Of a stretch of 64,000 bases of DNA, positions 285-33,240 are shown piece by piece. The notes beneath the pieces are model-generated. The model was not told the DNA's origin, ran no database searches, and worked only from the letters and a program-made list of their open reading frames with translations. Each line of letters begins with the position of its first letter. Position 1 is the stretch's first letter. The stretch is from Argopecten irradians (Eukaryota; Mollusca; Bivalvia; Pectinida; Pectinidae). The stretch is taken from assembly GCF_041381155.1 (NCBI RefSeq), contig NC_091137.1, forward strand, positions 17,045,765 to 17,109,764, given 5' to 3'. The translations under genes were made by a program, and so were the position numbers.

Positions 285-3200
285 CAGATTTAGGGGCCTC
301 CTTCTCAATATTCTGTAGATACATATCATTTCCTTTACTTTCCTTTCGCTTGCTGTCATTTTCTACATCTGATGGCATGTCATCCTCATAATGATCGTTC
401 ACTGTAGAGTCGTACTTTACTCGTGTCCACCAAGTCACCCCATCTAACTAAAGGGAAGAGCATAAAGTTATCATACTTTCTTCAAACTCCTTCCATCTAA
501 CAAGGTAATAAAATAAACTATGAAGTTTTCTGCAAAGAGAATTTTCATTTACCGATGGAAATATGATAAAACCACCAACTAACTTCATAAGATAGAAAAT
601 GAAACTCTCTTAAAGATGCTCCAACGCTGACAATTGTTTTTTTCACTTTAAAAAAACAGCAGCAGACGATTTAGCATTTTTCGTGTTACTCGTGTCCACC
701 AAGTCACCCCATCTAAGCAAAGGAAAGATAATAAAGTTATCAAGCTCTCTACAATGTAACTAAAGGGAAGAGAATAAAACTTTCAAGCTCTCTACAATGT
801 TCACTTCATGTAACTAAACGACAGAGAATAAAACCATCAGGCTCATTACCATGTACACTTCATGTAATTAAAGGAAAGAGAATAAAACTATCAAGCTCTC
901 TTCAATGTACGCTTCATGTAACTTAAGGGAAGATAATAAAACTATCAAGCTCTCTACAATGCACACTTCATGTAACTGAAGGGAAGAGAATAAAACTATC
1001 AAGCTCTCTACAATGTACACTTCATGTAACTAAAGGGAAGATAATAAAACTATCAAGCTCTCTACAATGTACACCTCATGTAATTAAAGGGAAAGGAATA
1101 AAACTATCAAGCTCTCTACTATGTTCACTTCATGTAACTTAAGGGAAGATAATAAAACTATCAAGCTCTCTACAATGTACACCTCATGTAACTGAAGGGA
1201 AGAGAATAAAACTATCAAGCTCTCTACAATGTACACTTCATGTAACTAAAGGGAAGATAATAAAACTATCAAGCTCTCTACAATGTACACCTCATGTAAT
1301 TAAAGGGAAAAGAATAAAACTATCAAGCTCTCTACAATGTACACTTCATGTAACTTAAGGGAAGAGAATAGAACTATAAAACTCTCTACAATGTATATTT
1401 CATGTAACTTAAGGGAAGAGAATAGAACTATAAAACTCTCTACAATGTATACTTCATGTAACTTAAGGGAAGAGAATAGAACTACAAAACTCTCTACAAT
1501 GTACACTTCATGTAACTTAAGGGAAGATAATAAAACTATCAAGCTCTCTACAATGTACACTTCATGTAACTTAAGGGAAGAGAATAGAACTATAAAACTC
1601 TCTACAATGTATACTTCATGTAACTTAAGGGAAGAGAATAGAACTATAAAACTCTCTACAATGTATACTTCATGTAACTTAAGGGAAGAGAATAAAACTA
1701 TCAAGCTCTCTACAATGTACACTTCATGTAACTTAAGGGAAGAGAATAGAACTATAAAACTCTCTACAATGTATACTTCATGTAACTAAAGAATATATGA
1801 CTCTTTCATATGTAGGATAGAACTATTCCATCCGAGGGTACAGAATTTTGGGTCAGAACCGAGGCTTGCTGAGGTTTCTGACCCAAAATTCTGTACCCGG
1901 GGGTGGATTATTTCTATCCTACATAATTTACATATGAAAGAGTTATTTTCTCACATTGCTTGTCGAGTTACTTGCACGAAAGGTGAGGCAGCCATTTTAT
2001 TACAAAATCAAGCTCTCTACAATGTACACTTCATGTAACTACAGAAAAAGCGAATAAAACTATCAAGCTCTCTATAATGTACACTTCATGTAACTAAAGG
2101 AAAGATAATAAGACTATCAAGCTCTCTACAATGTACACTTTATGTAACTAAAGGGAAGATAATAAGACTATCAAGCTCTCTACAATGCACACTTCATGTA
2201 ACTAAAGGAAAGATAATAAGACTATCAAGCTCTCTACAATGCACACTCCATGTAACTAAAGGAAAGGAAATAAAACTATCAAGCTCTCTACAATGTACAC
2301 TTCATGTAACTAAAGGGAAGATAATAAAACTTTCAAGCTCTCTACAATGTACACTCCATGTAACTAAAGGAAAGGAAATAAAACTATCAAGCTCTCTACA
2401 ATGTACACTCCATGTAACTAAAGGAAAGGAAATAAAACTATCAAGCTCTCTACAATGCACACTTCATGTAACTAAAGGGAAGAGAATAAAACTATCAAGC
2501 TCTCTACAATGTACACTTCATATAACTAAAGAAAAGCGAATAAAACTATCAAGCTCTCTACAATGTACACTTCATGTAACTTAAGGGAAGAGAATAGAAC
2601 TACAAAACTCTCTAAAATGTACACTCCATGTAACTATAGGGAAGAGAATAAAACTATCAAGCACTCTACAATCTACACTTCATCTAACTAAAGGAAATAA
2701 AGGAAATCTGTCAGACCTCCAAGGACATTGTTAAATGTAATTACAAAGCAATAATTCTAGAAAATAGCCCATCAATGGGATCACTGAATACTCTAAATAT
2801 TCGTGGTCTTTTTGTTGTTTGACATTCCGGTAACATATGTAACATATATGACTGGGAGGTTTTCGTAAACATAATAATAATAATTTATAATTGTTAATGC
2901 ATTTTCGTTTGTTTATAGGGTCAAAGTTGATTTTCGAAAATAACTAATGACTAAAAAATTCATTAATCATGATTATAGTTTTAAAAGTTTATACATGTTC
3001 TTGTCGGATTATATATGAACTCAGTGGTCGTTATTATACTTTCCAGGCGCGTAGCTACCAAGTAAGCACAAAAGCCCATGGATTCATATCATTTTCCTAA
3101 GCATATGTATTAATGTCGAGAAATTCCAATATTCGAAGGACGTGACCAGTGATCTGAGTTTTGCTTATTCTAAATTACGAACAGATCTTCTCGCTAACAG

Positions 3201-6200
3201 ATGGGATACAATTTATATCTTCCCAGTCAGAAAGTGTACATACATTGAACATTTAACATGAAAGATAACGTACCTACTTGTTAATGACGAGGCCATATTT
3301 AAAAATGAATTAATTTCCTGTGACATCACGAGACTAAAACATATTTAATATACCAACAGATGTATCAGCGTGACCTATTTGGAGTGGTAGATCACGTAAA
3401 AACTGACAAATCAAATCAATGCATTGAAGCATGTAGATACCGACATATATATATATATATATATATATACCATCATATGTGCACTATTCAAACGGTTCCT
3501 TTATCAGGTTTGATTTATCCAGCCGGACGCCAGGTAGTAATGCAGTGTTTGCGCTTGATTATAAGAATTATTTGGTGATTGAAGAAGAATAATAGTGATA
3601 TTTGGCGTGCTAAATATTAAGGAAGGTTCTTTACCTTACGATGCTTTTCCTTAACTTCTATAAAGCTTTTCTATAGGGAAATCTAAGTTAAGGAATATTC
3701 ATGAAACGGACCAGTGAAATTTGTCCAATTCTAAACGTTAATTCCCGATATTACCTCCTCTGTAGATCTTCTTGGTGTTAGTAGGCTGATCACCGTCATA
3801 GATAATGTCGTGATGAAGGCAAGTAATGCCCCAAAGTAAAGAAAATGAACTTTATACAATATAGCCGGTCTATTTTCTGGTTCTCCACAAGGTGGCGCTG
3901 GATAAACAAATTCCAAAACGAGTCGGATGATTCCGCAAAAGTGAGCAATCAACAATCCACCAATTACACCCTAGAGTACAAAACAATCAATAAGGTAAAC
4001 ACAATCTATATCAATTCTTAATTAAGACTTTAAAGAGAATTTATCTACAATGTAATGATAACGTCTCGATTGTTAGCAAGCGATTTTGAGTACATATCAA
4101 ATAATAATTAATTGAGCCCGAGGCTTGGTTACCGATTTCATCTTTTTATGCTTATTTTATTGAATACCAAGTAAAATGCTATTTGACGGAAAAACGTACT
4201 CATTATTCAACTTAAAATGTCATAGGTTGCCTGTAGTGCTTTTATGCCCCCCCACCCCCCATCCCCCTCTTTTTATTGGTATCATTTCTCGTGACATATA
4301 TTACTCGATAAAACTTTAAATGTTTTAAAGCTTACCCATTCCGTAGTTTTCGTCCAAAATATCGCTAATAGGAAGGCTGGACCCACAGGAGTTAATAAAT
4401 TTGCAAGGACCATATTGATGTAGTTAAAGAGTTGTCCCCCTTGGGAGCTCTTTATGAGTGGGAGCCAGACAATGCTTAATCCGCACATTACAAGAATGAC
4501 GACTCTGTGGAAAATAAATGTAACCCGTCAAATGTTTATTTTGTTAATTGTTATCTACGGTTTTAATTTTATATTATATCTGCAAACAATTTGGAACAAA
4601 TAATTTATACTTATTTAATCAAGAATGTTTCTTATCGTGCATGATCAAATTTGATAGCCTATCCACATATATAGATAAGGTCCTTACATTACAGTATCTT
4701 CCGCATTCGTGTTTGTTATGTTGTCCTGGTTTGGTACGTTTTAGTTTGTGTTTTATCATTTGTTATACATATTTCTCAGAGTGTCCATGGTTTCTTCCTT
4801 ATATTTTACATCCCATCGAAGCATACTTCCTGAGACAAAAAGCGTTTGCATGATAATAACGACGTATTAATATCTATGATATACAGGAGAAACTACATGT
4901 ACTTGCAATTTGGGTGTCTTTATCGTTTGCTCATAGATTATTGGCTACAAGATGCCATTTCGAGTTCAAGTGCTACAAGATGTAGCTTCTACAACATGTA
5001 AAATGGAGAACATTATTTTTAGCATTTAACAATCTGACAACTGCGATACCAGGAAACGACATTAGAATGGGTCTACGTACGATTGAAACCGACGTTCCAT
5101 TGAATGTTAAGTTAATATTGTCTCTTTAAATCTTACCCATAAGATTTGATATTATATTGGCATTCTTATATATATACATGTGCTCCCATATATAATACGA
5201 TGTACAAATAACAGAGATATTAGTTAGTGCCGACTCCAAAACATCATAAAATTATATTATACCTTCCGACAATGAGCAGTTCTTTCTGGGTCGATAACGG
5301 CCGGAATCGTCTCCATAGATCCATGGTAACCAAAGTACTGGAACTGTTGAAGATGGAGGTCAGGGAACTCATGATGGCGGACAATATGACTGCCATAAGA
5401 AAACCTCGTAATCCTGAAAAAGCCAGAACATTCTTGCCTTAATACCTGCACTTGTACATCTGAAATGCCCCCTTCTACTCAACTGGTGCGTGCTTATCTG
5501 TAGCATCCATTACTAGGGGCACATATTTCATCCAATTTCTAACTGCACAAAACCTCACCTCGTGGAAGAAGTTCAAGGACCAGTTTAGGGTATGCGATAT
5601 TAGAACAGCCAACAGGGTTCTCACAAATCCTCATACATTCCTCGGGGTCTGCGCAGGCTACCTCATCTAACAAGATACAAATCTTTATTACGATTTCTAT
5701 AAGTTGATTATAGTAAGACAAGAAGTATTGCGTGAGTTTATGCGTTCAAAACGGAAAACTGCATTGACAGAACTTGCTATTTATCGCATATAGACTCTTA
5801 TGATGCAAAAATCGAATTTACCTGGAAACAGAATTCTGCTGATAATCCCAGGTAAAGTCATCAAGAACATTGGAGTTGCTTTCAGGAAAGCAGCAAAAAC
5901 AGATCCACCTTTACCATGTTCCATGTTTTTTGCAGCTAGCGATCGTTGTACTATGATCTACAAACCAAGACACATTATAATAACATCAATTTGCCATTGC
6001 ATTATGGGATTAAGTCATAATTTTTATCTAAGAATTAACTTGAATAGTTTGTTTATGTTATGGAGATATAACACAAAAATCTGAGTGATGAAAATACATT
6101 TAGATTTTTGTGTGCGTAAAACATAAACAAATAATAACATAAAATATATTCAAGTCAATCCTTATATTTTATCCTTACAATTTAATTTCCTAAAGACAAT

Positions 6201-13602: not shown

Positions 13603-14442
13603 TTACCAGTTTAAATTATTATAGAAAAAATACCAGTGAAAACATAAAGCAAAATAGGAAAGACAAAATAGGAAACGTGACACATCAAGGTGGCACAGTG
13701 ACAAGCATTGTTGGACGAGGGAATCAAAACGCTTTCGCGGGAAGGGAAGTCCTTGGCGTGTTAGAAAGAGGCATCCTGCTTTAGAACCACGAAGTTTTAA
13801 ATAATTGATAAGGTATAACACTGGACAATGCTTCTGGGGCATGGCTTTGACTGGAATAGTGTGAGGTTTCCCACTGATGTTGTGCTTAAAATGACGAAAT
13901 GTGATAAATACTTGATTTGGTCTTTTGTCTTTAAATTCAACATCAACATCTGCTAATTGCAACAATTTCTTAGCTTGCGCTGAAGTATATGCTAGCAATT
14001 CCCCTAAACGAGCTAACGCATAAAATGCTAGTGTAAAGACCGCTGCTAAGAGAGACTGCTCGTGTGGGCAACTAGTAACTTTGCAGATTTGTTCACAAAG
14101 TGAATGCAAAATTGGAATAGTTATGGGCAGTCTCGTGTCGAAAGAAGAGGCCAGACGTGTAGCACCTTGAATGACCTTGCGAACAAAGAAGGATTTGGTA
14201 GGGTCGTTTAAACCATTTAGCTTATGTACATAGCCTAAAGCTGACAACTGTGACGTTATAGTACCAGGTGCCTTGCCCATTTGGTAGGCATGGGCAACAT
14301 ATAATGCTACTGTACTATGAGGTACTGGTATGCAGAATGGTTGTCCTAGTATGACAGTAGAAAATTGCGAAATCGCTGATAAAGCTCGATCATATATTCT
14401 TCTTGATGCTGGGGCCAGAGAAGCATTCAGGAGGGTTGACAA
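13603..14442 (-). pseudogene. tyrosine recombinase of the Ngaro-like element, C-terminally incomplete
   Basis: The 279-residue frame has the phage-integrase-like N-terminal part (ASRRIYDRALSAI near residue 13; GTITSQLSALGYVHKL near residue 60). It also has the catalytic box I as ALARLGELL (about residue 143), where the Arg is the first catalytic residue. The downstream box with HxxR and the nucleophilic Tyr is not found in frame. After CLSLCHLD the sequence becomes T-rich and unlike the family, then stops. An SFIRS-GGGS-like string in another frame near 13550-13580 may be the remains of the HxxR box. Possible explanations are truncation, or an unrecognised intron ending at the ATCAG near 13600. 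Probably inactive. Confidence 0.75.
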
Positions 14443-14939
14443 AGTGGGAAGAAGAGAGTTTGGTCCACCTGAGGATGCACTGGAGTTGGCTGAGGATTTG
14501 CAGAAGGCAGCAACTCTTTGAACCGCTTTATCTGTAAACGAGACAGAGCATCAGCCAATATATTTTTTCTACCTTCAATATGTTGAGCTTTTATCAAAAT
14601 GTTATGGTGTAAACATTTTAGGACTAGAGCGCGAACCATTGTCATGATCACAGGGTCTCGAGAAGATTGAGAGTTTAAAACCGAAACAAGACTCATGTTA
14701 TCAGTAAATAACCAGATAGCCGTGTTTTCTACTTGATGACCCCATGTATATATAGCAGCGACAATAGGATATAGCTCTAAGGCATTGATGTGAGGTTTTG
14801 TAATGTTGGGTGCCCAAACACCATACAACCATTCATCCTTGAATACAGCCCCAAAACCAATAGAAGCTGAGGCATCAGTAAAAAGCTGAATTGTCTCTGA
14901 GGTCTCCCATATATCTGACAAGAAGAAGTTTTTTTCCAT
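14427..14939 (-). CDS. RNase H domain of the Ngaro-like element
   Basis: 170-residue frame with the RNase H catalytic acids in order: FTDASASIGFGAVF (Asp), ALELYPI (Glu), FTDNMSLV (Asp) and ADALSR (Asp). It cleaves the RNA of RNA/DNA hybrids during reverse transcription. It continues the RT polyprotein but in the +1 frame: the join lies in a run of seven A (minus strand) around 14930. Its 3' end overlaps the start of the recombinase frame by 16 bp, a common layout in YR retrotransposons. Confidence 0.85.
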   Translation of the reverse strand: MEKNFFLSDIWETSETIQLFTDASASIGFGAVFKDEWLYGVWAPNITKPHINALELYPIVAAIYTWGHQVENTAIWLFTDNMSLVSVLNSQSSRDPVIMTMVRALVLKCLHHNILIKAQHIEGRKNILADALSRLQIKRFKELLPSANPQPTPVHPQVDQTLFFPLCQPS

Positions 14940-16353
14940 TAAATTTGTCTAAAAATTCAGCCCATAATGCCATATCAGCTCTTCCACCCGCGTTAAGTCT
15001 AATTTTATGACCCGATTTCTTTATGCCCTTGGTCAAGTCTATCATCCGACGCAGGAAGGGCCGACCTGGTATCACGACACTAGTTGCAAATTGTAATGTC
15101 CCAATTAAAGATTGTAATTCCTTAAGGGTGACTTTTTTGCGACATTTGAAATCGTGGCATAAAGCTTTACATTTAGATAGTTTGTCTTGTGGGAGACGAG
15201 ATTCCATGACAATAGCATCAAGAGTGATTCCTAGAAAGGGGAGGATTTTATCCGGTCCAAAAGTTTTTTCTGTTGCCAAGGGAACCCCTAACTGTGAACA
15301 AAGTAATTGAAAATCTTGTAAACTCGAAAGGCATTTCTCATAAGAAGGTTCAATGAACAAAAAATCATCCAAAACTTTGACAATGGCTGATGTTCTGCCT
15401 CGCTGATACATGATCCATTCAATAGCAGAGCTAAACATCTCAAAAATTCTGCAACTTTCTGCAAGGCCCATGGGAAGACATTTATCAAAATAAAATTGAC
15501 CTTTCCAATGAAAACCAAGCAGATGGTGTTGACTGGGGTGAATTGGAATAATCCTGAAAGCTGATTCAATATCTGATTTGGCCATAAATGGTGTTGGAGT
15601 ACGTTTCAAGAAAGATATTGCGTCCTGAATTGTTTGATACTGTACCGACGTAAACTCCTCATGAATACCATCATTAATAGAAGAACCCTCTGGAAAACTA
15701 AGGTGGTGAATGAGTCGGAATTTATTGGATTCTTTCTTAGGAACAACCCCTAAAGGGCTTAAATGAAAAGTTGAAAATGGTGGATTTGGAAATGGGCCTG
15801 CAATACGACCTGCTTGTATTTCTTTAGCCAGTTTTTCGTCAACAATTTCAGGTATATCTTTAGCCGATACCAGATTATTGCAGAATTCATGAGATGGCTC
15901 ACCTTGAAAATGAAATTTAAAACCTTCAGTAAAACCATTCACTAAATAAGAGGCTTTTCCCTGGTCATAACCCTGAAGGGCACGAGCAAGAAATACTGGA
16001 TCAACCGGCGAGATTACTTTATTGTCCGAAGCGCCATTGATGCCCGCGGGCATTTCCACGATAGGGGAAGCGGTAGTTGGATGGATTGTTGAAACGTTGG
16101 CCGAAGCGTGGCCCACGGAAGCGAAAGTGAGGGGGACGAAAATTGCCATGGGTAGATGACCCTTGGTTGCCCTGATAGCCCAAAACCGGGCAATTAGAGC
16201 TGGCATGTTTCGCCCCACAAACTCCACATTTGTGCAGAAATTTGCACCCACTGCAATATTCACCACGCGCGTAGCGATGACAGACATTTGTATTTTGAGA
16301 CAAGTTTGCGCGACGCGACATGGCCTCCTGCCACAATTCCATTTGGCATTCAT
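14875..16353 (-). CDS. reverse transcriptase of the Ngaro-like element
   Basis: A DIRS-clade RT. The true protein begins around 16018, where the frame leaves the gag overlap (DPVFLARALQGYDQGKA); the first about 110 codons of the open frame are a shadow of gag. Landmarks: LGVVPKKESNKFRLIHHLS (fingers), AKSDIESAFRIIPIHP (first catalytic Asp), LPMGLAESCRIFEMF (palm), KVLDDFLFI (catalytic Asp pair with Val in place of the usual Tyr), LPFLGITLD (primer grip region). The frame then runs into a thumb-like segment ending WAEFLDKF. An extra A in an A7 run moves the RNase H into another frame. Confidence 0.85.
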   Translation of the reverse strand: MNAKWNCGRRPCRVAQTCLKIQMSVIATRVVNIAVGANFCTNVEFVGRNMPALIARFWAIRATKGHLPMAIFVPLTFASVGHASANVSTIHPTTASPIVEMPAGINGASDNKVISPVDPVFLARALQGYDQGKASYLVNGFTEGFKFHFQGEPSHEFCNNLVSAKDIPEIVDEKLAKEIQAGRIAGPFPNPPFSTFHLSPLGVVPKKESNKFRLIHHLSFPEGSSINDGIHEEFTSVQYQTIQDAISFLKRTPTPFMAKSDIESAFRIIPIHPSQHHLLGFHWKGQFYFDKCLPMGLAESCRIFEMFSSAIEWIMYQRGRTSAIVKVLDDFLFIEPSYEKCLSSLQDFQLLCSQLGVPLATEKTFGPDKILPFLGITLDAIVMESRLPQDKLSKCKALCHDFKCRKKVTLKELQSLIGTLQFATSVVIPGRPFLRRMIDLTKGIKKSGHKIRLNAGGRADMALWAEFLDKFNGKKLLLVRYMGDLRDNSAFY

Positions 16354-16867
16354 CCCAGCGAAGATGACATGCAGGGTTGGCCATCAACATTCTAAATGTT
16401 TTGTCATAATATCGCCAGTCTGCATGTTTTGCTGCCAGATGACGGACCATTGACATGTATTTAAGCAGTTGGGGAAAAACCTCTTTGTTAGCATCTATGC
16501 TACAAAACACAGCAATAAATATATTGAAATGATTTGTCCATTCATCTATTGATAGAGTCTTTGGTGGACCAGATTTCCTGACTAGCTGAAAGGATGGTTT
16601 GTCATCATTGGTGTTGATGACCATAGTCATGTTCCCATCAGTGTCTTTATCTGTTAACGTGCTCATGTCAACGAATTTATTTGCCAAAATCTTTTGTCGA
16701 ACAATGTCAGAGACCATCAAATGTAAGGGTAAAGATTGAGACACGAAATGCCTCGAATTGTCAGTGTCTGTCTCTACGTCATCATGAAATGCGAGAGAGT
16801 TGGCTGGAAAAATGCCCTCACCAATAGCCATTGTTGTGGATGGGGCACTTGACATGTTGGCAGTCAC
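16019..16867 (-). CDS. gag-like protein of the Ngaro-like element
   Basis: 282-residue frame upstream of RT. The middle carries a conserved-looking block (SIDEWTNHFNIFIAVFCS, about residue 105). The C-terminal third has Cys/His clusters: CHRYARGEYC and CKFLHKC, then CGVCGAKHASSNC (C-x2-C-x3-H-x4-C). It ends in an Arg/Phe/Gly-rich basic tail likely to bind nucleic acid. It overlaps the RT frame by about 330 bp in another frame. The start used is the MTANMSS methionine; the frame is open further upstream toward repeat A1, so the N-terminus is uncertain. Confidence 0.75.
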   Translation of the reverse strand: MTANMSSAPSTTMAIGEGIFPANSLAFHDDVETDTDNSRHFVSQSLPLHLMVSDIVRQKILANKFVDMSTLTDKDTDGNMTMVINTNDDKPSFQLVRKSGPPKTLSIDEWTNHFNIFIAVFCSIDANKEVFPQLLKYMSMVRHLAAKHADWRYYDKTFRMLMANPACHLRWDECQMELWQEAMSRRANLSQNTNVCHRYARGEYCSGCKFLHKCGVCGAKHASSNCPVLGYQGNQGSSTHGNFRPPHFRFRGPRFGQRFNNPSNYRFPYRGNARGHQWRFGQ

Positions 16868-16938
16868 AGTTGTTGCAGTAAACTGGGTGCTGGGTGGGGT
16901 TGTGGTTAACTCGACTGTTGTTGGTGTTGCTGCTGTTT

Positions 16939-17107
16939 GAAATGAGTAGTGCGCAAACTCATAAACAAAGCGTGGTCACGTGAGCTGATAAGCCAATCAG
17001 AAGTAATCAAATATATACGCAGAGGCGGTAAATTTGAAACGACTACAAGGAGGCGGTAAATTTGAATCGTGTAAAAAATCGTCTATTGCATAGACTCTTT
17101 ATTTTTT
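16939..17107 (-). repeat. split direct repeat A1
   Basis: Outer 5' repeat of the element; about one base differs from A2 (GAAACGAC versus GAATCGAC). It likely holds the promoter, but I see no firm TATA box or initiator. Confidence 0.92.
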
Positions 17108-19637
17108 ATGAATTCATTTACTTGACATATCAAAGATTAAAAAGGAGAAGAACCCTACATGCAATATCAGCAACATGTATGCATAATTATGTGGGATTTT
17201 GTTTGTTTGTTTATGTTTATGTTGATATTTATGTCATTCCTTAAATGGTGTATTTTTGCGATACATAGGCAGGTCGCCTGGACAATTAAGCAGTATTTTT
17301 GTCCACGCTGTAAGAAGTAACTTTTTGCCCTGTATTTACTACTTGAAGTACTTCATCTCATACAGACACATGTTTTATAAGATATGTCATACAATGTGTA
17401 AAATGTGTAACATAAAAGATAATGTCGCAAAACCAACCGAAAACATCTTTAAAATAATTGTCCCATTACATTGTACATGTTACGATTGATGAAAATTAAG
17501 GAACCACAAGAGATTTGGTATAGTAATGCTTAAGAATACAGATGCATATAGTTCGAATATAATTGTTGATAGTTCATTGCCAGATTTGTAAACGAACGCA
17601 GTTAAAATATAATGTAATTACATTCTACAACTTTCAGAACTTGAGTACATTATAATATTCTGTTTTCGTAAATATAGTCTCTTTAAATCATCGCTGTTCA
17701 AAACAGCTTTATTTTAAGCTGGTAAAAATTTCCAAAATTTCGTTTATAAGATATCTCATATATTTGTGTTTAAAGATACCTTAATAACTTAATTAGCTAT
17801 CTTATAAAAGATATTGGAAATCTTACAAAGTTATAGAAGATATATTCCTACCAACCGTGCTCCGGGAATAAATGTGTATTCCCTATACGGGAATAAATGA
17901 GTATTCCCTATATAAATTTCATGAACAGTGTATTAACGGTAAACCGTAGCAATAACATTGTAGTCATTTAAGTCGTTTAAAATTAGCGAGATTACTTATA
18001 GAAAACGTGAGGTGATAACACAGTAATCACACACATTATGTGAGAATGGCCTTACACACAGGCATCATAGTTAAGATTTATTCCTACAAAAACGCAAAAT
18101 AAGGCCAAAGTTGATAAGACTAGATAGTTTAACATTAAAAGTGCTGAAGTTACATAAAACATTTTTTAAACTTTTTGAAGTTGTTTGATATCATTCTATC
18201 AGTCAATTACAGAATAAAACACTTTGTAGTGTTTTGTTCTAGTTGAGGTTGATAATGACTATGGTTATTCGCATTCGTAAAATGTCATAATTAATCTGCG
18301 TTTCCTATTACGTCTTAACTTCGCTTGGTTTTGAGTTGTCGTTCTGATTCGGTCACTATTTGAGGCCTTAGCGAGGAAGTAAGGATTAACTGGGTAACAA
18401 ATTAGTAGAAATATATTCTTTATTACGTTTACTTTTCATCCATAAATCGCTAAACGAAATAAAAGATAACCATAATATAGCAATTGCTGAATAATTCTTT
18501 AATTTGTAAAAACGCACATCATATAATTTGCATACTATTGGTCTTAACTATTTTTATTAATTGTGTCATACAATTTAATTCACATACATAAACAAAGTCA
18601 GCATACTTATACCATATGCCATACAATCATTTCTAATTTACTGAATGGTCAATCTGGTACATATTAAACTAAATATCATATATATTATATGACATCATAA
18701 TTGATTAAAATGGTAATAACATCGACTAGTTTAAATAATCACTTTTCATGTTTTTGTTAGTTTTTTTGTTTTTTTTAATTTTATGGTCATCTTTAATTAA
18801 ACATGAGCCTATCCTAAAAGTTTAGATGGTGTTGAAGCAAAATAGCTTAATTTGAAACATATGCTGTGGATGAAATGAGTTTGGCTGGTACAGCACATGT
18901 TCGAGCCCTAAATGTCCAAACGATCAATTTACCTCTGTAACACAATAATGTGTCCTGTTATAAGCTAAAATTAGCTTATATAATATTACCAACCAACACA
19001 TGCGTCTAGCAATTCAATATCAAACACTAAAACAAGATATGCTACATCTACTTTCAAGATTAGAGAGGACTCTTCTACACATGGTCGTTACTATGTATGA
19101 TCTTAATTTCAATTTCCAAATATTTTATTGACAAAAAGATGTTAGTGTCAAAAGGATTAGACATCAGGCATAGCCTATCTTAGTCTTCTCTTGATATTGG
19201 TGGTACAGACAAATTATTATATAAAACATATATACATGGTGAGGTTTATGAAAATAAGGGGAGGTAACTCCTAGATGAGGAATGACATAATTTTTGATCA
19301 TATATATTGTAACTCTATAAATTGACAACAATTTTTTATATAATAACAAAATATTTCACACAATTCTAACTATACTTGATAGTATGTATATTTTATGATA
19401 TTGGTCCCATTCGCCACAACAGATACAGGCTATAAAGTCCGCATGTGTTTAAAACAATTAGCCATCCACTGATGGGCATCAAGAATCAATTTCACAGAAT
19501 ACACATATATTTGATTTGTGGAGTATGATCTTAATTCAAGAAATTTGCATTTTGAAATATCTCTAAATATAATAATTATAGTATTATTTTCGTTCTGTTT
19601 AAATAGTACGAATTCAGTATATTATCAACAAAGGAAA
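17108..19637. other. intergenic DNA without recognised features
   Basis: AT-rich sequence between the Ngaro-like element and the methyltransferase pseudogene. Only short chance frames are present. The 5' untranslated exon and original promoter of paralogue A could lie here, but nothing in the sequence identifies them. Confidence 0.6.
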
Positions 19638-20902
19638 TCACTTTTTCGTAGCATGCAACATAAAAATTCCACTATAATATGTTGGTTTTTTTCTAAATCA
19701 CATTTCTGATCGCTATCTAACATAGCAGTTTTTATTGTCGATACTTGGAAACCGCATTCTGTGTATATTGATTCTATTTCGTTTTGAGACAAAGAAGAAC
19801 ATAAAAATTTAACTTTCCCAACCTCATAATGCGTATTATTGAAAAGGCCAAGCAATATCAAATGTCCGCCATCTTTTAGCAAACGTGATACATTTTGTAC
19901 TACTTTCCGATATTCCGACACGGTTTGCGAAGCTGCTTCAAAACATAAAGATGATGTAATTACATCGAACTGACCTGGATGGTCTCCCTTTCCTAATGGA
20001 CATTCGGATCTAATTTCAATATGAAGAATTCCTCGTACGTTCCCTTTCATCATCTTCGCCTTTCTTCAATAGCTTGCCTAAAGCAAAGAAATGGTACATT
20101 AATTTAAGAATTAATAAACGCTAGATGAAAGCACTGAATAACGAATTACAACGATAATCGGAAGCAAAACAGAGAGGAGATAATCATAAAACCATTAATA
20201 CACTTTACCCTCATTTCCTCAGCAGAATTTTGATACTAGATTATTTTCATCTCGGTTGAAATTCTATAATCAAATATGCCGTTGTGACTTTATCAAGGAA
20301 AATGTATTTTGGATTGGGCCTTTTTGTCACTTAAATCCATCATTTTTTAACTTTACTAAGCGCTTCGAAATAAAGTGATTTTATTCGAAATATTAAGTAC
20401 ATCCCTTATTCACTGGCAGTTTTTCAGCTTTAATTGCAATGGTAATCGTACAAGATATATATATATATGGACTAATCAACAGAATGCGACTAATCTCTTA
20501 TTTACTGTTTGTTTTTATAGTTTTCTCTAGGAGAGCAATATAGCGCAATCTTTAGCAACCATTATATTCACGTAATATGTTTGAAAATTTGACAAATTAG
20601 GGGGAAATGCTTTACGATCACAGTCCACCTTGTGATTATAATATTATGTTCACTGGTGGCGAGTTCAGTGACTAATGTGGCGCTCCATTATTATATTATT
20701 CATACCTGGCATTTTCTTTTTGACGACGTAATCTGTAATTTCCTTATCTAACATTCCATCACCCGTCCACCAATTAGTCAGCACAGCTCTGTTTCCATTA
20801 CAAATGTCGCTCAAATTTCATCCATGTGTACAAAGGCACTAACCACAGATTTAATTGATGGTCCTGTTCCAATATCAAGGAGACTGTCACCCTGGATATC
20901 AC
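19638..20902 (-). pseudogene. NNMT-like methyltransferase pseudogene
   Basis: Two exons match the intact gene at 41365-42915. Exon 2 (20706-20902) begins GDIQGDSLLDIGTGPSIKSV, the SAM-binding motif I. It has lost four bases after MDEI, giving an immediate TGA, and one base near its donor. Exon 3 (19638 to about 20083) starts after TTTGCTTTAG and has a one-base loss near its start. It then reads well through GDHPGQFDVITSSLCFEAAS and LLKDGGHLILLGLF. Near the end it shifts again, so the true C-terminus (GIFMLHATKK then TGA) is in another frame. No exon 1 was found upstream. Splice sites are still recognisable, so the loss is fairly recent. A 142-residue open frame starting MMKGNVRG remains but lacks the cofactor motif. 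Confidence 0.85.
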
Positions 20903-22025: not shown

Positions 22026-22990
22026 CTACCTGTGGTTACCACATTGGTATGTAAGGAAAAGACGTGTCTTATCGCCTCTAGTAGACTTTAAGCTATTTAC
22101 ATTAAGTCTCAATGCTCGATATGGGCACAACTTCAGATCTGCCTCCTCTGTCGCATAAGCTGTAAACTTTCGAAGGAAAAATGCCTCCCATGGTTTCCCA
22201 AGACGTTGATTCTTAGCAATAAACTGTAGGTTAGGCAGCAAACGAACACCTCCTTGCTCCCAGCGGATAACGCATGTAACTCGCTAGATCTAGCTGCAGA
22301 AGCCACTGCCAACAGAAACTCTGTTTTCAAAGTAAGCCATTTCAACGGGGCTTCTTCTAGAGGTTCAAATAGTGGTTCTGTAATTTTTAGCAAAACAAGT
22401 GGCAAACTCCAGTTTGGAACCAATGATCGTACCTCTGGTCTGCTATTAAAAAGACCCTTCACAAGTCGAGATAAATCTCTATTAGTCCCAATAGCTTCAG
22501 CCTGCGTGTGAATAACTCCAATCGCTGACCTATAACCAGCTAATGTAGAAACCTTATAACCTTTCGTCTGATGAAGGTGTAACAGAAAATCTGCAATATC
22601 ACTTTTAGTTGCTGTACGTGGATCAATCTGCCGTTCCTCATACCAGCTGTTGTAGCATCTGATTCTTGTATTATAGACTGCCTGTGTAGAAGTTCGTCCA
22701 GATGCAGAGATTGCCTGAACAAACTCCTGTGAAAATCCCTTTGTAGCGTAAGCCTGCTGGACACTTTCCATACAGTCAGTCGAAACATTCCCGGATCTGG
22801 ATGTATGAGTCTGCCCCTTTGTTGTGTCAGCAACAACTCGTGAAGAGGTAACTCCCTTGGGTAATCGACTAAAAGTTCGAGAAGCTGTGGATACCATGAT
22901 TGGCGTGGCCATCTCGGAGCTACTAGAAGGACCACACAATCCTCTTGTGTTACTTTCCGCAGAACCTGAGGAATCAAAACTATTGGAGGG
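22026..22990 (-). pseudogene. tyrosine recombinase remnant of the DIRS-like element
   Basis: The N-terminal core-binding part reads YATKGFSQEFVQAISASG and STLAGYRSAIGVIHTQAEA (about 22765-22480). The first catalytic box follows as LLAVASAARSSELHAL (about 22340-22295). One base later the frame breaks and continues in another frame as LLPNLQFIAKNQ and LCPYRALRL, ending at LTYQCGNHR. The HxxR and Tyr region is absent. The long open frame that also covers 23665-22990 reads through RNase H in a different frame; that part is mostly a shadow. Confidence 0.75.
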
Positions 22991-23040
22991 AATGCGTAAG
23001 CAAACATTCCTTCCCATGGAACCGACAGTGCATCCACCGC

Positions 23041-23568
23041 CTATGCTGCCTCCTCTGGAAACGGGCAACAGAAAACTGGTCGATTCTTGTTCTCCTTTGC
23101 CTGAACCGTCCGACCCCTGAAAAGTGAATCTGCCAAAACATTCCTTCTCCCCGGAATATGAGCTGCTTTTAACTGAATTTGATTTTCCTCGCACCATAGC
23201 AGAATCTCCCATGTCAAGTAACAAAGATCTGGAGAATGAGTTCCACACTGTTTGTTGATATAACTGACTACTGTTGAGTTGTCGCATCGCAGTCTGACAG
23301 ACCATCCCCTCACCTTGGAATGAAGCCCTTTTAATGCTAGTAGGACGGCTTTCATTTCTAACCAATTGATGTGATGTTTGGCTTCTCAACTGTTCCATAG
23401 ACCAGACCTCACTCCTTCCTCTAGATGGGCTCCCCAGCCCTGGTTCGACGCATCCGTGACTAGTGTGGTCTCCATCAGTGTGGTCTGTAGGCTCATGCCC
23501 TTCAGAAGATTTACCCGAGACTTCCACCATCTTAAAGTTTCCCGCAGTGGCTCCCTCACTGCAATCAA
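23041..23568 (-). pseudogene. RNase H domain of the DIRS-like element
   Basis: LVTDASNQGWGAHLEEG (first Asp), then after a break INWLEMKAVLLALKGL (Glu), LRCDNSTVVSYINKQ (Asp) and RRNVLADSLFRG (Asp). The four acidic residues of RNase H remain, but the domain is interrupted between 23386 and 23355. Confidence 0.75.
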
Positions 23569-23723
23569 AGTCAGAACCTATTGAGTGGAGTGTCTCCACA
23601 GGGCTAACAAGTACAGCTGAATTGGACGCATGCGGAGGCGTCCCATAGGAATCAGAAGTATACATGGTTCCATCTGGCCTAGCAAGCGCAGCACTACCTG
23701 TGCTGATACTAACCTTGTCTGCT

Positions 23724-24358
23724 CTATCTGTCTGACCAGAGTCTGAATAGTCTCCACTTTTTTATAGTTGGCCTGACCACCCCTTCCTTCAAGCAAATGT
23801 CTGCTCCTAGATGAGTGATTGTCTGGGTGGGATATAAAACTGACTTCTCCTGATGGATCAGAAGTCCTAGCCTTTCGGCCAATGTCACCGTAGCCTGCAG
23901 TGATCTTTGCACTACCTCTGGACTTCGTCCCATTGCAACAAACTGTAGATGTCTGCCGTCCACACAAAACCGAAGAAATCGGCGGAAGGCTGGGTGCACT
24001 GGAACATGCAGATATGCGTCCTGAAGGTCGAGAGAGGCGACCCAATCCCCCTCTGCAACGCGTTTATTACTACCTGTAATGTCTCCATCTTGAAATGAAC
24101 TTTCTCCAAAAACTTATTTAGGATGCGCAGGTTTAAAATAGGCCGAAACTTGCCGTTTGGCTTTTGAACCACAAAAAACGTACTGTAAAACCCGGAACCG
24201 ACCTCGTCCTCGGGAACATATTCTATAGCACCTTTTTCTAAAAGGTTTTCTTGTACCCTTGTCTGCCTGATCCCTGTATCTGCAGGAATCTTGATGAATT
24301 GGAGTTTTAATCCTACCTGGATAGTGCTCCTCACCCACTCGTCGTCCTTAATCTGCAC
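23724..24358 (-). pseudogene. reverse transcriptase of the DIRS-like element, catalytic block deleted
   Basis: Recognisable parts: TRVQENLLEKGAIEYVPE, FFVVQKPNGKFRPILNLR, and in a shifted frame a segment up to AFRRFLRF. The sequence then passes directly from QFVAMGRSPEVVQRS to AERLGLLIHQEKSVL and THLGADI. The family stretch with the PFGL motif and the YxDD active site, expected between these, is missing (about 40 residues, inferred from family layout). A TAG stop lies just upstream of the first segment. Confidence 0.8.
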
Positions 24359-24417
24359 CTACTCTCGACAAAGCTGCTGGATTCTGGCGCCTACTGGCTG
24401 GAACAGAATCCTGGAAG

Positions 24418-26109
24418 CTATGGACGAGACCGAAAAGGATGTGGACCCTGGCCCTTTCCCGGCCTCCGAAAGGATCCTCTGCCCTTTCCCTGGAAAGGTT
24501 CCTGCTGAGTGTCTTTGGGTCTCTCCTTCCGTTGCCTATTGAATCCCTGCTGACGCTGTGAACGGGTACTCTGACTCGACTGACGCTGTCTAGGCTCAGA
24601 CTGTTTACTAACTTTAGTAGGAGGTGCTCCACTCCTAGACTTCTGGTCCTCTCTTTGACGCTTGCCATACTTCAGAGCACTCTGTGTCTCCTTAGCGTCG
24701 CGTATGTTCTCTGCGGCCGAGTTCAACACATCGAAATACTTCCCAGCAAATAACTCTGCGTTTGTGGTACATTGTAGGAAGTGATAAAAGACGGCTTTCA
24801 GTCGCCTTGTTGACAAAATTTACCTCATTCAGAAAAAGTTTACGACGACCCAGAGCCGAATTCACCATAATGCAAGATGTAACATCAGCCATAGACATAA
24901 AGACACTGGCTAGTGCCTGACGGCCAGCTTGCTGTACTGCTACATTACCTGAAGACTTGTCCATGTATGATACAATCATGGTGGCGTATGAAATGGCCCG
25001 CAGCAGTACTCTGGCTCCAGAATCATTACGTGTTAAGTCTTTATTTACTTCCCTCAAGAGCTTGGACTTGAGGCACATCTGACCCTGGTGACTGGAGGAA
25101 CCAACCAATCCTTCCTCAATATAAGAATCCAAGCGAGTGGTTTTCCCAAACTTCTCAAAATCTGTATCTGTAATCAGAAAAGCTTTCTCATCACGGTTTC
25201 TGAATGCACTGACCTTACCATACTTAGTACCCTGACGGTCAATGTCCTGCACAATGTCACTAATTTTCCCCTCTAATGGTAACTTTGTGACCTTCTGTTT
25301 TTCTGATCCTCCACTCAAGTGTGAGGGTAAATAGGATGTACCCTTGGGAGTGTCCCCCTCCCTATCCTGAGTTGGGATGTTCAGCTCACAACAAACATTT
25401 TGTATAAGTTCATCCCACTTAATTGGATCCAAATTCCCTGGAGCTCCCTGAAACACCTGACCTATATTAATAGAGGAGCCTCCACCTAAAGACACGTGAG
25501 ATATGCTATCATTGTCTTTTACAGGCCTGTCCTGGACAGACTCTCTGTCATTAAATCCTGACCCGGCTGCCATGGACACAGATTCCATATCATCGTCCTC
25601 ACTCTCCTGACGTTCACATACAAATCTATCAAATCGACCTTCTCTGCTCCGTGACTTATGAATATTATCTACTGAAAACTGATCGTTCTCATTCTCAGAC
25701 TGCCGAACAGGTGGGGAAGGTCTATGATCTTTGAAAAAATTAGACATTTGAGCAGAAATGTATCGGTCAATCGCCCCACGTGTTGCCTCATCCAGCGAGA
25801 CACTTACCGTTGATAACGGCGATCCCCGCTCCGATTCCTCACATCCTCCGAAGTCTCATTAGTAGGCTCTTGACCCTTGTTTGGGGGGCTCATCCCACCC
25901 TGGGTCCTCGTAATCCCTTTGGGAGGCCGGCCACCACCGGCCGATTTCTCTATCATCTTGTCAAAGATGACCCATTTTTCGCTTATCAATCGTTCACAAA
26001 CGATGCATGGGAACGCTTTATTACATATTCGGTGTCTAAAACACTCCTCGTGATCGTCCAAGACATTCATAGACTTCGAACATTTCTTACATTCTTTAAA
26101 TCTGTCCAT
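24418..26109 (-). pseudogene. gag-like ORF1 of the DIRS-like element, copy 1, frameshifted
   Basis: The N-terminus (MDRFKECKKCSKSM, about 26109) carries paired Cys/His motifs CKKC, CFRHRIC and CIVC, a zinc-binding arrangement seen in DIRS gag proteins. The central part (25747-24692, 351 codons) holds RVLLRAISYATMIVSYMDKS and QAGRQALASVFMSMADVT. The C-terminal part (24816-24418) is in another frame and ends in a basic, Gln/Arg-rich tail. Breaks: one near 25810-25850, where the two tandem copies differ by a 16-bp indel, and one near 24800. Confidence 0.75.
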
Positions 26110-26177
26110 TTTATCTTCTCTAAATAGCGTAGCAAAAATCTCGTGCTGGTTGTAAATGGCGCCCGAAAGAATACTGG

Positions 26178-26189
26178 TGCGCATGCGCG
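26178..26189. promoter_or_regulatory. NRF1-like palindrome upstream of ORF1, copy 1
   Basis: TGCGCATGCGCG matches the palindromic NRF1 core (GCGCATGCGC). It lies about 70 bp upstream of the ORF1 methionine in an otherwise AT-rich window. The copy at 29972-29983 is identical. Use as a promoter site is inference. Confidence 0.45.
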
Positions 26190-27501
26190 AGTACCGGATG
26201 TGCTTCCGGTCGGGTGCATTCGATTTGTTTTCGGGCGTGTAGTATTGGTAAACCGGAGGAATTGTCTAATGTTTTACTCATGCAGGTAGGTATGGGGACT
26301 GAAGTAAACTAGTGTGGGTTAAATCGTCTTAGATACTGGACAGAGATCGGAGTAGTATTTTGTATTTGTCAAAGTTTACCGGACCTGAAGATGTCATGAA
26401 GTGAGTCCAATTTAAAGTGATAAAATTCTCTTTCGTCGTGTGAGCCATTTAATTTTCCGTCAATCTATACGTTGTCATGTATGAAATTGGATCGAAATTG
26501 TCATAATCAGTGGTTTCGATTGATGATGTCATTTTCAACAGCAAATGATCTTGACTCTATATAGTTTCCTTCACAAATTAGAGTATCGCATGGGTGTTAA
26601 ATGTAGTAAATACATTTTGCTAGAACGAATGATGATTTTATAGGAACAGAATGTCGCCATGTATGAATATGTAAGTGGATTCGGTAGATGTTTCCTATGA
26701 TAATAATGCCAGGGATACCTAATTAGTATATTATTACCTTTCTACATTTTTTACATTATGAATTCTCAGTGGTGGATGGTTGAGAATGATATTGCACGAT
26801 AATTACCATATCCCGCGTAAAGGTTAAATTAGTTTTTCTTTATTTAGATCTTCAACAAGACTATTTGTTTCGTGATCAGATTCAAAGATGATCAATTATG
26901 CTTGTTATTTCCAATGTTTACTTTTATTGGTGAACGACCAAATTAATCAAATTCAAATAGTTGTTGTATCATTTTCAACTACAATAGTGTTCACCTTCAC
27001 TGGTTTCGTCCATCATAGAATAATCTTTGATGCGATTTAGTTTGGGATCGATTGTTAGCCTTTTAATAACTTTATTTTACAAACAAACAGTTGTTAGGTT
27101 GATAACGTTTGTCTCCTGTTTACATAAACCCCAGAAATATATCGCCTTATTAAATGAAGAGTATATGTATGAACGATTTTTTAACAAATACAATTATTTC
27201 GTTCCAATTAATCTTTGCATGTCTGTACGTGATTCAATGATTATGAGGTCAAAGCTAGATTCAAAATCTGAAAATATTGTAAAAGAATATCACCTTCATC
27301 CCAGCATTTTTAAAGTTTCCCGCAGTGGCTCCCTCACTGCAATCAAAGTCAGAACCTATTGAGTGGAGTGTCTCCACAGGGCTAACAAGTACAGCTGAAT
27401 TGGACGCATGCGGAGGCGTCCCATAGGAATCAGAAGTATACATGGTTCCATCTGGCCTAGCAAGCGCAGCACTACCTGTGCTGATACTAACCTTGTCTGC
27501 T

Positions 27502-28136
27502 CTATCTGTCTGACCAGAGTCTGAATAGTCTCCACTTTTTTATAGTTGGCCTGACCACCCCTTCCTTCAAGCAAATGTCTGCTCCTAGATGAGTGATTGT
27601 CTGGGTGGGATATAAAACTGACTTCTCCTGATGGATCAGAAGTCCTAGCCTTTCGGCCAATGTCACCGTAGCCTGCAGTGATCTTTGCACTACCTCTGGA
27701 CTTCGTCCCATTGCAACAAACTGTAGATGTCTGCCGTCCACACAAAACCGAAGAAATCGGCGGAAGGCTGGGTGCACTGGAACATGCAGATATGCGTCCT
27801 GAAGGTCGAGAGAGGCGACCCAATCCCCCTCTGCAACGCGTTTATTACTACCTGTAATGTCTCCATCTTGAAATGAACTTTCTCCAAAAACTTATTTAGG
27901 ATGCGCAGGTTTAAAATAGGCCGAAACTTGCCGTTTGGCTTTTGAACCACAAAAAACGTACTGTAAAACCCGGAACCGACCTCGTCCTCGGGAACATATT
28001 CTATAGCACCTTTTTCTAAAAGGTTTTCTTGTACCCTTGTCTGCCTGATCCCTGTATCTGCAGGAATCTTGATGAATTGGAGTTTTAATCCTACCTGGAT
28101 AGTGCTCCTCACCCACTCGTCGTCCTTAATCTGCAC
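27502..28136 (-). pseudogene. RT remnant, copy 2
   Basis: Same segments and same missing YxDD block as at 23724-24358, with identical predicted peptides. The preceding TAG is also shared. Confidence 0.8.
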
Positions 28137-28195
28137 CTACTCTCGACAAAGCTGCTGGATTCTGGCGCCTACTGGCTGGAACAGAATCCTGGAAG

Positions 28196-29903
28196 CTATG
28201 GACGAGACCGAAAAGGATGTGGACCCTGGCCCTTTCCCGGCCTCCGAAAGGATCCTCTGCCCTTTCCCTGGAAAGGTTCCTGCTGAGTGTCTTTGGGTCT
28301 CTCCTTCCGTTGCCTATTGAATCCCTGCTGACGCTGTGAACGGGTACTCTGACTCGACTGACGCTGTCTAGGCTCAGACTGTTTACTAACTTTAGTAGGA
28401 GGTGCTCCACTCCTAGACTTCTGGTCCTCTCTTTGACGCTTGCCATACTTCAGAGCACTCTGTGTCTCCTTAGCGTCGCGTATGTTCTCTGCGGCCGAGT
28501 TCAACACATCGAAATACTTCCCAGCAAATAACTCTGCGTTTGTGGTACATTGTAGGAAGTGATAAAAGACGGCTTTCAGTCGCCTTGTTGACAAAATTTA
28601 CCTCATTCAGAAAAAGTTTACGACGACCCAGAGCCGAATTCACCATAATGCAAGATGTAACATCAGCCATAGACATAAAGACACTGGCTAGTGCCTGACG
28701 GCCAGCTTGCTGTACTGCTACATTACCTGAAGACTTGTCCATGTATGATACAATCATGGTGGCGTATGAAATGGCCCGCAGCAGTACTCTGGCTCCAGAA
28801 TCATTACGTGTTAAGTCTTTATTTACTTCCCTCAAGAGCTTGGACTTGAGGCACATCTGACCCTGGTGACTGGAGGAACCAACCAATCCTTCCTCAATAT
28901 AAGAATCCAAGCGAGTGGTTTTCCCAAACTTCTCAAAATCTGTATCTGTAATCAGAAAAGCTTTCTCATCACGGTTTCTGAATGCACTGACCTTACCATA
29001 CTTAGTACCCTGACGGTCAATGTCCTGCACAATGTCACTAATTTTCCCCTCTAATGGTAACTTTGTGACCTTCTGTTTTTCTGATCCTCCACTCAAGTGT
29101 GAGGGTAAATAGGATGTACCCTTGGGAGTGTCCCCCTCCCTATCCTGAGTTGGGATGTTCAGCTCACAACAAACATTTTGTATAAGTTCATCCCACTTAA
29201 TTGGATCCAAATTCCCTGGAGCTCCCTGAAACACCTGACCTATATTAATAGAGGAGCCTCCACCTAAAGACACGTGAGATATGCTATCATTGTCTTTTAC
29301 AGGCCTGTCCTGGACAGACTCTCTGTCATTAAATCCTGACCCGGCTGCCACGGACACAGATTCCATATCATCGTCCTCACTCTCCTGACGTTCACATACA
29401 AATCTATCAAATCGACCTTCTCTGCTCCGTGACTTATGAATATTATCTACTGAAAACTGATCGTTCTCATTCTCAGACTGCCGAACAGGTGGGGAAGGTC
29501 TATGATCTTTGAAAAAATTAGACATTTGAGCAGAAATGTATCGGTCAATCGCCCCACGTGTTGCCTCATCCAGCGAGACACTTACCGTTGATAACGGCTA
29601 TTCCCGCTCCGTAAGACTGGTACTGGGGGGCCTCACACCCTCCGAAGTCTCATTAGTAGGCTCTAGACCCTTGTTTGGGGGGCTCATCCCACCCTGGGTC
29701 CTCGTAATCCCTTTGGGAGGCCGGCCACCACCGGCCGATTTCTCAATCATCTTGTCAAAGATGACCCATTTTTCGCTTATCAATCGTTCACAAACGATGC
29801 ATGGGAACGCTTTATTACATATTCGGTGTCTAAAACACTCCTCGTGATCGTCCAAGACATTCATAGACTTCGAACATTTCTTACATTCTTTAAATCTGTC
29901 CAT
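28196..29903 (-). pseudogene. gag-like ORF1, copy 2, frameshifted and with a nonsense codon
   Basis: Same layout as copy 1. In this copy the N-terminal Cys/His part and the following PLSTVSVSLDEATRGAIDRY-like part are in one frame, separated by a single TAG near 29602. In copy 1 the same place is frameshifted by the 16-bp indel. The break near 28575 is shared. Confidence 0.75.
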
Positions 29904-29971
29904 TTTATCTTCTCTAAATAGCGTAGCAAAAATCTCGTGCTGGTTGTAAATGGCGCCCGAAAGAATACTGG

Positions 29972-29983
29972 TGCGCATGCGCG
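29972..29983. promoter_or_regulatory. NRF1-like palindrome upstream of ORF1, copy 2
   Basis: Same TGCGCATGCGCG as at 26178-26189. Confidence 0.45.
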
Positions 29984-30397
29984 AGTACCGGATGTGCTTC
30001 CGGTCGGGTGCATTCGATTTGTTTTCGGGCGTGTAGTATTGGTAAACCGGAGGAATTGTCTAATGTTTTACTCATGCAGGTAGGTATGGGGACTGAAGTA
30101 AACTAGTGTGGGTTAAATCGTCTTAGATACTGGACAGAGATCGGAGTAGTATTTTGTATTTGTCAAAGTTTACCGGACCTGAAGATGTCATGAAGTGAGT
30201 CCAATTTAAAGTGATAAAATTCTCTTTCGTCGTGTGAGCCATTTAATTTTCCGTCAATCTATACGTTGTCATGTATGAAATTGGATCGAAATTGTCATAA
30301 TCAGTGGTTTCGATTGATGATGTCATTTTCAACAGCAAATGATCTTGACTCTATATAGTTTCCTTCACAAATTAGAGTATCGCATGGGTGTTAAATG

Positions 30398-32877: not shown

Positions 32878-33240
32878 GGATTTCTAGAACAGTTCTAAAA
32901 CTGCTCCAGAACGGTTCCGGAAAGAGCTCTAGAAGTGTTCTAGAATTATTCTAAAGGAATTATAGAATCGTTTTACAACGTTTTCTAGAACGATGTTCTA
33001 GAACTATTCTAGAACAGTGTTCTAGAGTAATGTTCTAGAACAATTCTAGAACTATTCTGGAATTAAGAAACTGGAGCAGTTCTAGAACATTTCTAGAATA
33101 TTTTCAGAACATTTCTGAAAAAGTCTCATTTAACATTGTAGAACCGTTCTAGAACAGTTGTAGAATTGTTCTAAAACAGGTTGTTAAACTGTTCTAGAAC
33201 TTTTTAGAGCGTTTCTAGAACTTTCATTAGATAATCTAGA
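32878..33240. repeat. cluster of TTCTAGAA dyads (heat-shock-element-like)
   Basis: About 360 bp dense in GTTCTAGAAC palindromes: at least 12 exact TTCTAGAA words (for example near 32882, 32938, 32983, 33008, 33044, 33080, 33148, 33192) plus many one-off variants. Spacing is irregular, so it is not a simple tandem array. TTCnnGAA is the core dyad bound by heat-shock factor. No gene adjoins it. Confidence 0.85.

Follow-up and report, generated by a model that had tools for sequence, protein, structure and literature searches.

The locus and its genes

The window, by which we mean the whole 64-kb stretch of DNA analysed (C4:17045765-17109764), carries on its minus strand a gene, paralogue A, that we modelled from 12218 to 285 as 14 exons with GT donors and AG acceptors, joined in one open frame of 587 aa. 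The gene continues past the window edge, and its end lies outside the window. The predicted protein matches the SSF domain of Pfam (3.7e-117) and the solved SGLT1 (8e-186), and the presence of both an SSF domain and SGLT-like sequence identifies paralogue A, as judged from this translation, as an SLC5/SGLT-type transporter gene.

Paralogue B occupies roughly 59,000 to 44,586 of the window; to the left of the window we found the exon 14 sequences of two further tandem paralogues, C (C4:17034756) and D (C4:17022440). The first base of exon 14 of A is 447, and the junction reads CTCTTCCCTTTAG/TTAGATGG. The exon begins TTA GAT GGG in A and TTA GAA GGG in B, in the same phase, in agreement with the exon number and acceptor position that the initial annotation had assigned.

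Other parts of the window hold a retroelement-like stretch in two copies (22133-26308 and 27261-30102; 2608 of the 2813 30-mers of the second are found in the first), a further region with long minus-strand reading frames, labelled retroelement-like by eye (13603-16975), two related reading frames on opposite strands (19625-20065 and 42439-42915), which we take to resemble an NNMT/PNMT-type methyltransferase, and degenerate 11-bp repeats of TTCTAGAACAT type (32928-33225). Intron 13 of B has a tandem array of its own, of a different sequence, with 4.9 copies of 155 bp (45120-45872).

A 54-bp minisatellite in intron 13 of paralogue A

The features of intron 13 of A and its flanking exons are as follows, in window coordinates.

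285-447, minus strand: exon 14 of paralogue A, 163 nt, with donor GTATGA at 284
441-493, minus strand: native acceptor segment of 53 bp (unit 0), with the direct repeat CCATCTAAC on either side
448-3754, minus strand: intron 13 of paralogue A, 3307 bp
494-538, minus strand: old degenerate second unit, with no AG at its junction, also in paralogue D (0/500 shuffles do as well)
540-609, minus strand: intron sequence, of which 558-597 is common to paralogue C (87.5% over 40 bp; score 55, 0/500 shuffles)
610-685, no strand assigned: dispersed-repeat fragment, 76 bases, ending at the start of the exon copy, with TTAC common at the joint
686-716, minus strand: exact copy of the start of exon 14, 31 bases, its own junction AG replaced by GC
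710-756, minus strand: edge unit of mixed type, with native GTTATC and array-type AAGCTCTCTACAATG
754-2694, minus strand: 54-bp minisatellite (TRF: period 54, 36.2 copies), with AG at 30/33 junctions
1797-1946, no strand assigned: inverted-repeat (foldback) part of an insertion interrupting the array, with inverted arms of 50 nt and 18 nt
2622-2709, minus strand: distal array edge, its last copy (2681) with CATCTAA
3755-3970, minus strand: exon 13 in the exon model of A

The 54-bp array that the initial annotation placed in intron 13 of A is thus recovered by TRF. Its consensus unit, in splice orientation, is TTACATGAAGTGTACATTGTAGAGAGCTTGATAGTTTTATTCTCTTCCCTTTAG, and the 29 full 54-base units have a mean likeness of 89%; a block of four units is nearly repeated within the array (915-1130 and 1131-1346). 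A 16-base core of the unit, allowed up to 2 mismatches, gave 31 matches, all within 741-2673, and none elsewhere in the 64-kb window, where the arm of the foldback insertion likewise had no second copy. Searching the genome (846 Mb) with 686-1060 returned 10 best-candidate matches, all at this locus or in two neighbouring paralogues; because the search scored best candidates only and skipped very common words, it leaves rarity in the genome unproved.

The interior of the array is homogenised and its outer edges are not. CATCTAA is present in the copies at 441, 494, 710 and 2681, and CATGTAA in 27/29 full interior units.

The initial annotation had every unit carry a pyrimidine tract ending in one of two octamers, CCCTTTAG or CCCTTAAG. 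Among the 33 array junctions (759-2687) an AG is indeed present at 30, but the remaining 3 have AA, and the exact octamers occur in only 17 (6 and 11, respectively). The junction ends are TTTAG (15), TTAAG (11), TTCAG (2), TATAG (1) and TGTAG (1), and the exon-side bases are TTACATG at 29/33 junctions and TTAGATG at 1/33.

Relation of the unit to the exon 14 acceptor

That the unit nearly equals the acceptor of exon 14 had been noted from the bare sequence, and the comparison with a background upholds the homology: 448-493 aligned to the consensus unit with a score of 22, against a background maximum of 11, with 0/40,770 background segments and 0/20,000 shuffles as high. With the acceptor core removed (461-493 only), 11/61,168 background segments reached the unit-match score. 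Past its first 7 bases, exon 14 had no significant likeness to the unit (9% of 61,178 background segments equal it), and we therefore rejected the proposal that half of each unit is made of exon sequence. The exon-like sequence detectable per unit amounts to 7 bases only, and these may derive from an old intronic copy.

The 9-bp direct repeat CCATCTAAC occurs at 440-448 and 493-501 in A, flanking a 53-bp stretch, and by sequence the unit is closest to this stretch rather than to exon sequence. One of the two 9-bp repeats is an old degenerate copy of the boundary inside the intron. As far as these alignments go, the array lies at an exon-intron boundary and is derived from the acceptor region of exon 14.

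We scanned 26 acceptors of A and B (that of A exon 14 included) and 14 donors of A for boundary duplications, and the exon 14 acceptor of A stood out. A weaker, AT-rich intronic match at exon 4 of B (6/1000 shuffles do as well) was read as chance among 40 tests. In a scan of 13 acceptors of C and D, those of D exon 14 (2/100 shuffles; its second unit) and C exon 5 (4/100; far upstream) were marginal, and the rest were not.

Comparison with paralogues B, C and D

TRF, run on segments holding intron 13 of C (624 bp) and of D (405 bp), found no 54-bp array in either. An array of A's unit is also absent from paralogue B, where the end of the intron is unrelated to that of A. Of the four paralogues compared, A is thus the only one with the array.

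A, C and D agree at every one of the final 36 intron positions ahead of exon 14 (36/36). Given that array-free C and D carry the identical acceptor, the acceptor is ancestral to the three and the array arose in A. The initial annotation had proposed that orthologues with the array and without likeness to the acceptor would speak against its reading; a comparable check, run on paralogues instead of species, places the acceptor first.

In paralogue D both CCATCTAAC repeats persist at the 53-bp spacing, together with the degenerate second unit and without expansion, and a third, older boundary copy lies further upstream (score 28, 0/500 shuffles). In paralogue C the second CCATCTAAC repeat is lost and the degenerate second unit is absent. 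Positions 448-560 of A match D (A and D are 92% alike over 333-560), and since 558-597 in turn matches C, the stretch next to the real acceptor is ancestral intron, the sequence at 558-597 included.

The exon itself is unevenly conserved. In its first half, 81/82 bases are identical in each pair among A, C and D, and in its second half 57/79 (A-C), 53/78 (A-D) and 56/71 (C-D), that is, 68-79%; the contrast between halves is significant (Fisher 4e-7 for A-C, 3e-8 for A-D). Exon 13 of A and C agrees at 169/216 positions. A near-identical tract of about 118 bases spans the exon 14 acceptor (window 366-483, C4:17034675-17034792, C4:17022359-17022476), and such a pattern is likely to reflect gene conversion within the cluster. 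Protein constraint alone is unlikely to account for the tract, given the in-frame stops in exons 5 and 12 of C.

Paralogue C (C4:17034595-17039324, L010-L011), with these stops and with no match to exon 8, is probably a pseudogene. It also carries, between its exons 5 and 10, a young 35-bp array of 10.6 copies with 99% matches (L011 2171-2538).

The exon-edge copy and the flanks of the array

The 31-base match to the start of exon 14 that had been reported at 686-716 is exact (417-447, 31/31), with the qualification that the AG of the copy is lost; a blast alignment that includes intron extends over 69 bp at 87%. The exon part of the copy differs from its source at 0/31 positions and the adjoining intron part at 9/38 (Fisher 0.003), a contrast by which the exon copy would seem to be of later date than the array, or else to have been converted. 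We also looked for a full, degenerate copy of exon 14 at 553-716 and rejected it, as the likeness ends with the 31 bases and 397/500 shuffles do as well beyond them.

From the real acceptor outward, the order in A is 494-609, the dispersed-repeat fragment (610-685), the exon copy and the array. Further copies of the dispersed repeat lie at window 38981-38899 and at C4:17014834-17014759. The distal edge of the array, at 2622-2709, aligns to the arrangement of second unit plus native segment in D (score 66, 0/500 shuffles).

Origin of the array

The initial annotation suggested that a duplication across the exon 14 boundary had seeded the array. The acceptor-region origin of the unit and the copy of the exon edge at the head of the array both stand, but its simplest form, a tandem duplication of the 269 bp at 417-685, does not. 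The remainder of such a copy is absent beyond the array: in a comparison of 540-685 with 2694-3754, 299/300 shuffles did as well.

Direct repeats of 5-10 bp around a seed segment, as found beside young minisatellites, are present here as the CCATCTAAC pair, in A and in D. The array does not, however, lie in place between these repeats; the real acceptor is single, and the array is upstream of 494-685. Given that it lies away from the repeats at 440-501, we have to postulate a further copy of the segment, and given that 494-609 and 610-685 intervene between the real acceptor and the array, expansion in place is insufficient and a separate copying step is required. The alignment of the distal edge to D, together with CATCTAA at both outer edges, fits a copied block with a multiplied segment. 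Lastly, the contrast between 0/31 and 9/38 differences calls for conversion or for a second, later event.

We propose that in the ancestral intron two 9-bp CCATCTAAC repeats would have flanked the acceptor at a spacing of 53 bp, and that a copy of the exon edge and the 53-bp segment, with the next direct repeat, may have been placed upstream. Within this spare copy the segment would have been multiplied to about 36 units as its repeats slipped or exchanged unequally, so that the array would have grown beside a second copy of the exon edge and not around the working acceptor. The 0/31 and 9/38 differences could be explained if the array had converted the edge unit and exon 14 had converted the exon copy.

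The opposite direction, in which an array already present as a mobile or dispersed satellite provided or replaced the exon 14 acceptor, would be compatible with the homology of acceptor and array, although homology alone is directionless, and with the acceptor region of B being unrelated to that of A. Against it, C and D carry the same acceptor without an array, and the best-candidate genome matches to array DNA, in the search that skipped very common words, all fall within the gene cluster. We rejected an array-first origin on the acceptor of array-free C and D, and regard it as very improbable. A tree of 34 units was dropped as a guide to direction, having too few columns and only 2/26 inner branches well supported.

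We consider it probable that the array is a minisatellite of the 'mirage' type, which grew from the exon 14 acceptor of one SLC5 paralogue as a by-product of turnover at an exon-intron boundary and is tolerated because the whole of it is intronic.

Predicted consequences for splicing

For the acceptor-like quality of the junctions we built a matrix from 25 acceptors of A and B, leaving out that of A exon 14; in this small matrix the real exon 14 acceptor scores 4.8. Of the 30 junction AGs, 23 score at least as high (21 of 28 strict-pattern matches, plus 759 and 2147), and over the whole array 26/202 AGs do so, where 9.6 would be expected from the window background (2800-44500). That background has 4.8 AGs per kb with a score equal to that of the real site, and when a random 54-base piece of the window was made tandem it contained one such AG in 23% of 1,128 cases. 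The decoy acceptors are thus real as sequence patterns, with a quality above background but modest, such sites being common and the matrix small.

On the donor side, the matrix was made from 27 exon ends, which themselves score 3.7-12.5 in-sample. The exon 14 donor (284) scores 8.0, and the authentic acceptor is intact, whereas no donor-like site within 720-2700 exceeds 5.0. We examined 38 alternative junctions (34 with AG), and all reach a stop before the exon 14 donor, 27 of them after 17-53 codons. Under exon definition, AGs with no donor behind them are poor competitors. Splicing would then mostly ignore the array, whose AGs lack a good donor, in favour of the authentic acceptor beside the strong donor at 284, and occasional use of a decoy would be expected to yield a premature stop and a transcript that is likely degraded.

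The proposal that the repeated acceptors are functional decoys, competing with the exon 14 acceptor and so reducing or controlling productive splicing to a degree set by array length, draws on several of these observations. An AG with a pyrimidine-rich stretch is present at 30/33 junctions, 26 AGs reach the score of the real site against 9.6 expected, and the 23/30 junction AGs that equal or exceed the real acceptor could compete by sequence alone. The AAG ends are also used by genuine acceptors, those of A exon 5 (window 8547) and B exon 10 (window 52983), and predicted pairing is the same as at real acceptors (mean unpaired 0.47 for 30 decoys, 0.45 for 26 real acceptors, p 0.55), on which we rejected the idea that RNA structure hides the decoys. 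Moreover, across the 29 full units (807-2627) no part of the unit varies less than the 7 exon-like junction bases (a mean of 0.29 changes per position, compared with 1.94 for the unit as a whole); we cannot account for this by neutral turnover alone, and it counts against the turnover origin that we favour. On the other hand, the array has no good donor, each alternative junction examined leads to a stop, and the surroundings contain equal-scoring AGs anyway. Changes at the two AG bases themselves, in 3 and 0 of the 29 units, are about as frequent as the unit average of 1.94, and the pyrimidine tract is above that average (2.84). From other systems come one precedent in each direction: the length of an intronic VNTR can alter splicing (TERT VNTR6-1; PMC11830802), and lancelet mirages are reported to be silent (PMC3087553, PMC3902484). 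Taken together, functional decoys seem unlikely.

A related alternative is a poison cassette exon in A, created by the array edge, with its acceptor at 759 or 712 and the donor-like site at 552 as its end, which would introduce an early stop and lower expression if included. With a score of 8.3, the site at 552 equals the exon 14 donor (8.0) in quality, and its GT is missing from D in the alignment; the acceptors at 759 (7.5) and 712 (4.9) are at or above the real 4.8, and the resulting exons of 207 nt and 160 nt, respectively, would reach stops after 38 and 2 codons. These scores come from small matrices (25 acceptors, 27 donors), and acceptors of such score are common by chance, so that we regard the cassette as quite unlikely. 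Overall, it is doubtful that the array and the exon-edge copy act on A splicing in either way, as decoys or as the 759/712-552 exon, reducing productive transcripts in proportion to array length. Were this true, a self-grown minisatellite would give one tandem SLC5 paralogue its own, variable expression level.

Comparison with known minisatellites

The closest parallel is offered by the 'mirage' minisatellites of lancelets, reported from Adh, globin, troponin C and PGBD5 genes, with no interference with regular splicing noted in those reports (PMC3087553, PMC3902484). As described there, mirages are tandem repeats from an exon-intron boundary that lie beside the real boundary with an AG in many units, and their outer units are exempt from homogenisation; both hold for the A array. 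Each unit of a mirage combines exon and intron, and here we find 7 exon-like bases per unit plus a single 31-base exon copy at the array head. By its sequence the A array shows the main mirage features, being boundary-derived, with AG in many units and unhomogenised edges, while the exon share per unit is unproven. Length polymorphism and somatic instability also count among the traits of mirages; the A array is described here from a single assembly. The lancelet globin gene BflGb6 has 6 and 3 units of 150-160 bp, in contrast to about 36 units of 54 bp in an SLC5 gene. In contrast to the mirages as described, too, no more than about 7 bases of each unit are exonic and array-free paralogues give the direction of change. 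The A array is thus longer than the globin mirage and is accompanied by array-free paralogues that show its direction.

In human segmental-duplication genes, internal tandem repeats at exon-intron boundaries average 30-bp units in four copies (PMC2812944). The A array resembles them as a minisatellite expansion at a boundary in recently duplicated paralogues; the human repeats, according to the portion of that study cited, alter exons or create introns with transcript support, whereas the A array is described here from genomic DNA.

The model of Haber and Louis, which concerns yeast minisatellites in general in the portion cited, holds that short direct repeats, of 5-10 bp, often lie on either side of a young minisatellite (PMC4232551). 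The 53-bp segment between 9-bp direct repeats, unexpanded in paralogue D, corresponds to this starting state. In contrast to that model as cited, the segment here is a splice acceptor, and the expansion seemingly took place in its second copy.

VNTR6-1 in TERT intron 6 (38 bp, 24-66.5 copies) is likewise a long intronic minisatellite in a transcribed gene, but its effect on splicing is tied in the cited account to a G-quadruplex, and not to copied splice sites (PMC11830802). The sequence suggests that the animal may be a bivalve mollusc. For molluscs, we found no mirage minisatellite in the open-licence literature; a study of cone-snail gene introns describes dinucleotide to tetranucleotide repeats and mentions minisatellites in its reference list only (PMC3862624).

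Splice-site minisatellites are described mainly from lancelets in the open-licence literature that we found, and boundary-derived arrays have been suggested to be a general tendency of lancelet genomes. In the present cluster the stages stand side by side, with both repeats in D, the second lost in C and about 36 units in A, so that the birth of an array can be traced; and the A array provides a natural test of whether the splicing machinery ignores some thirty acceptor-like sites ahead of an exon.
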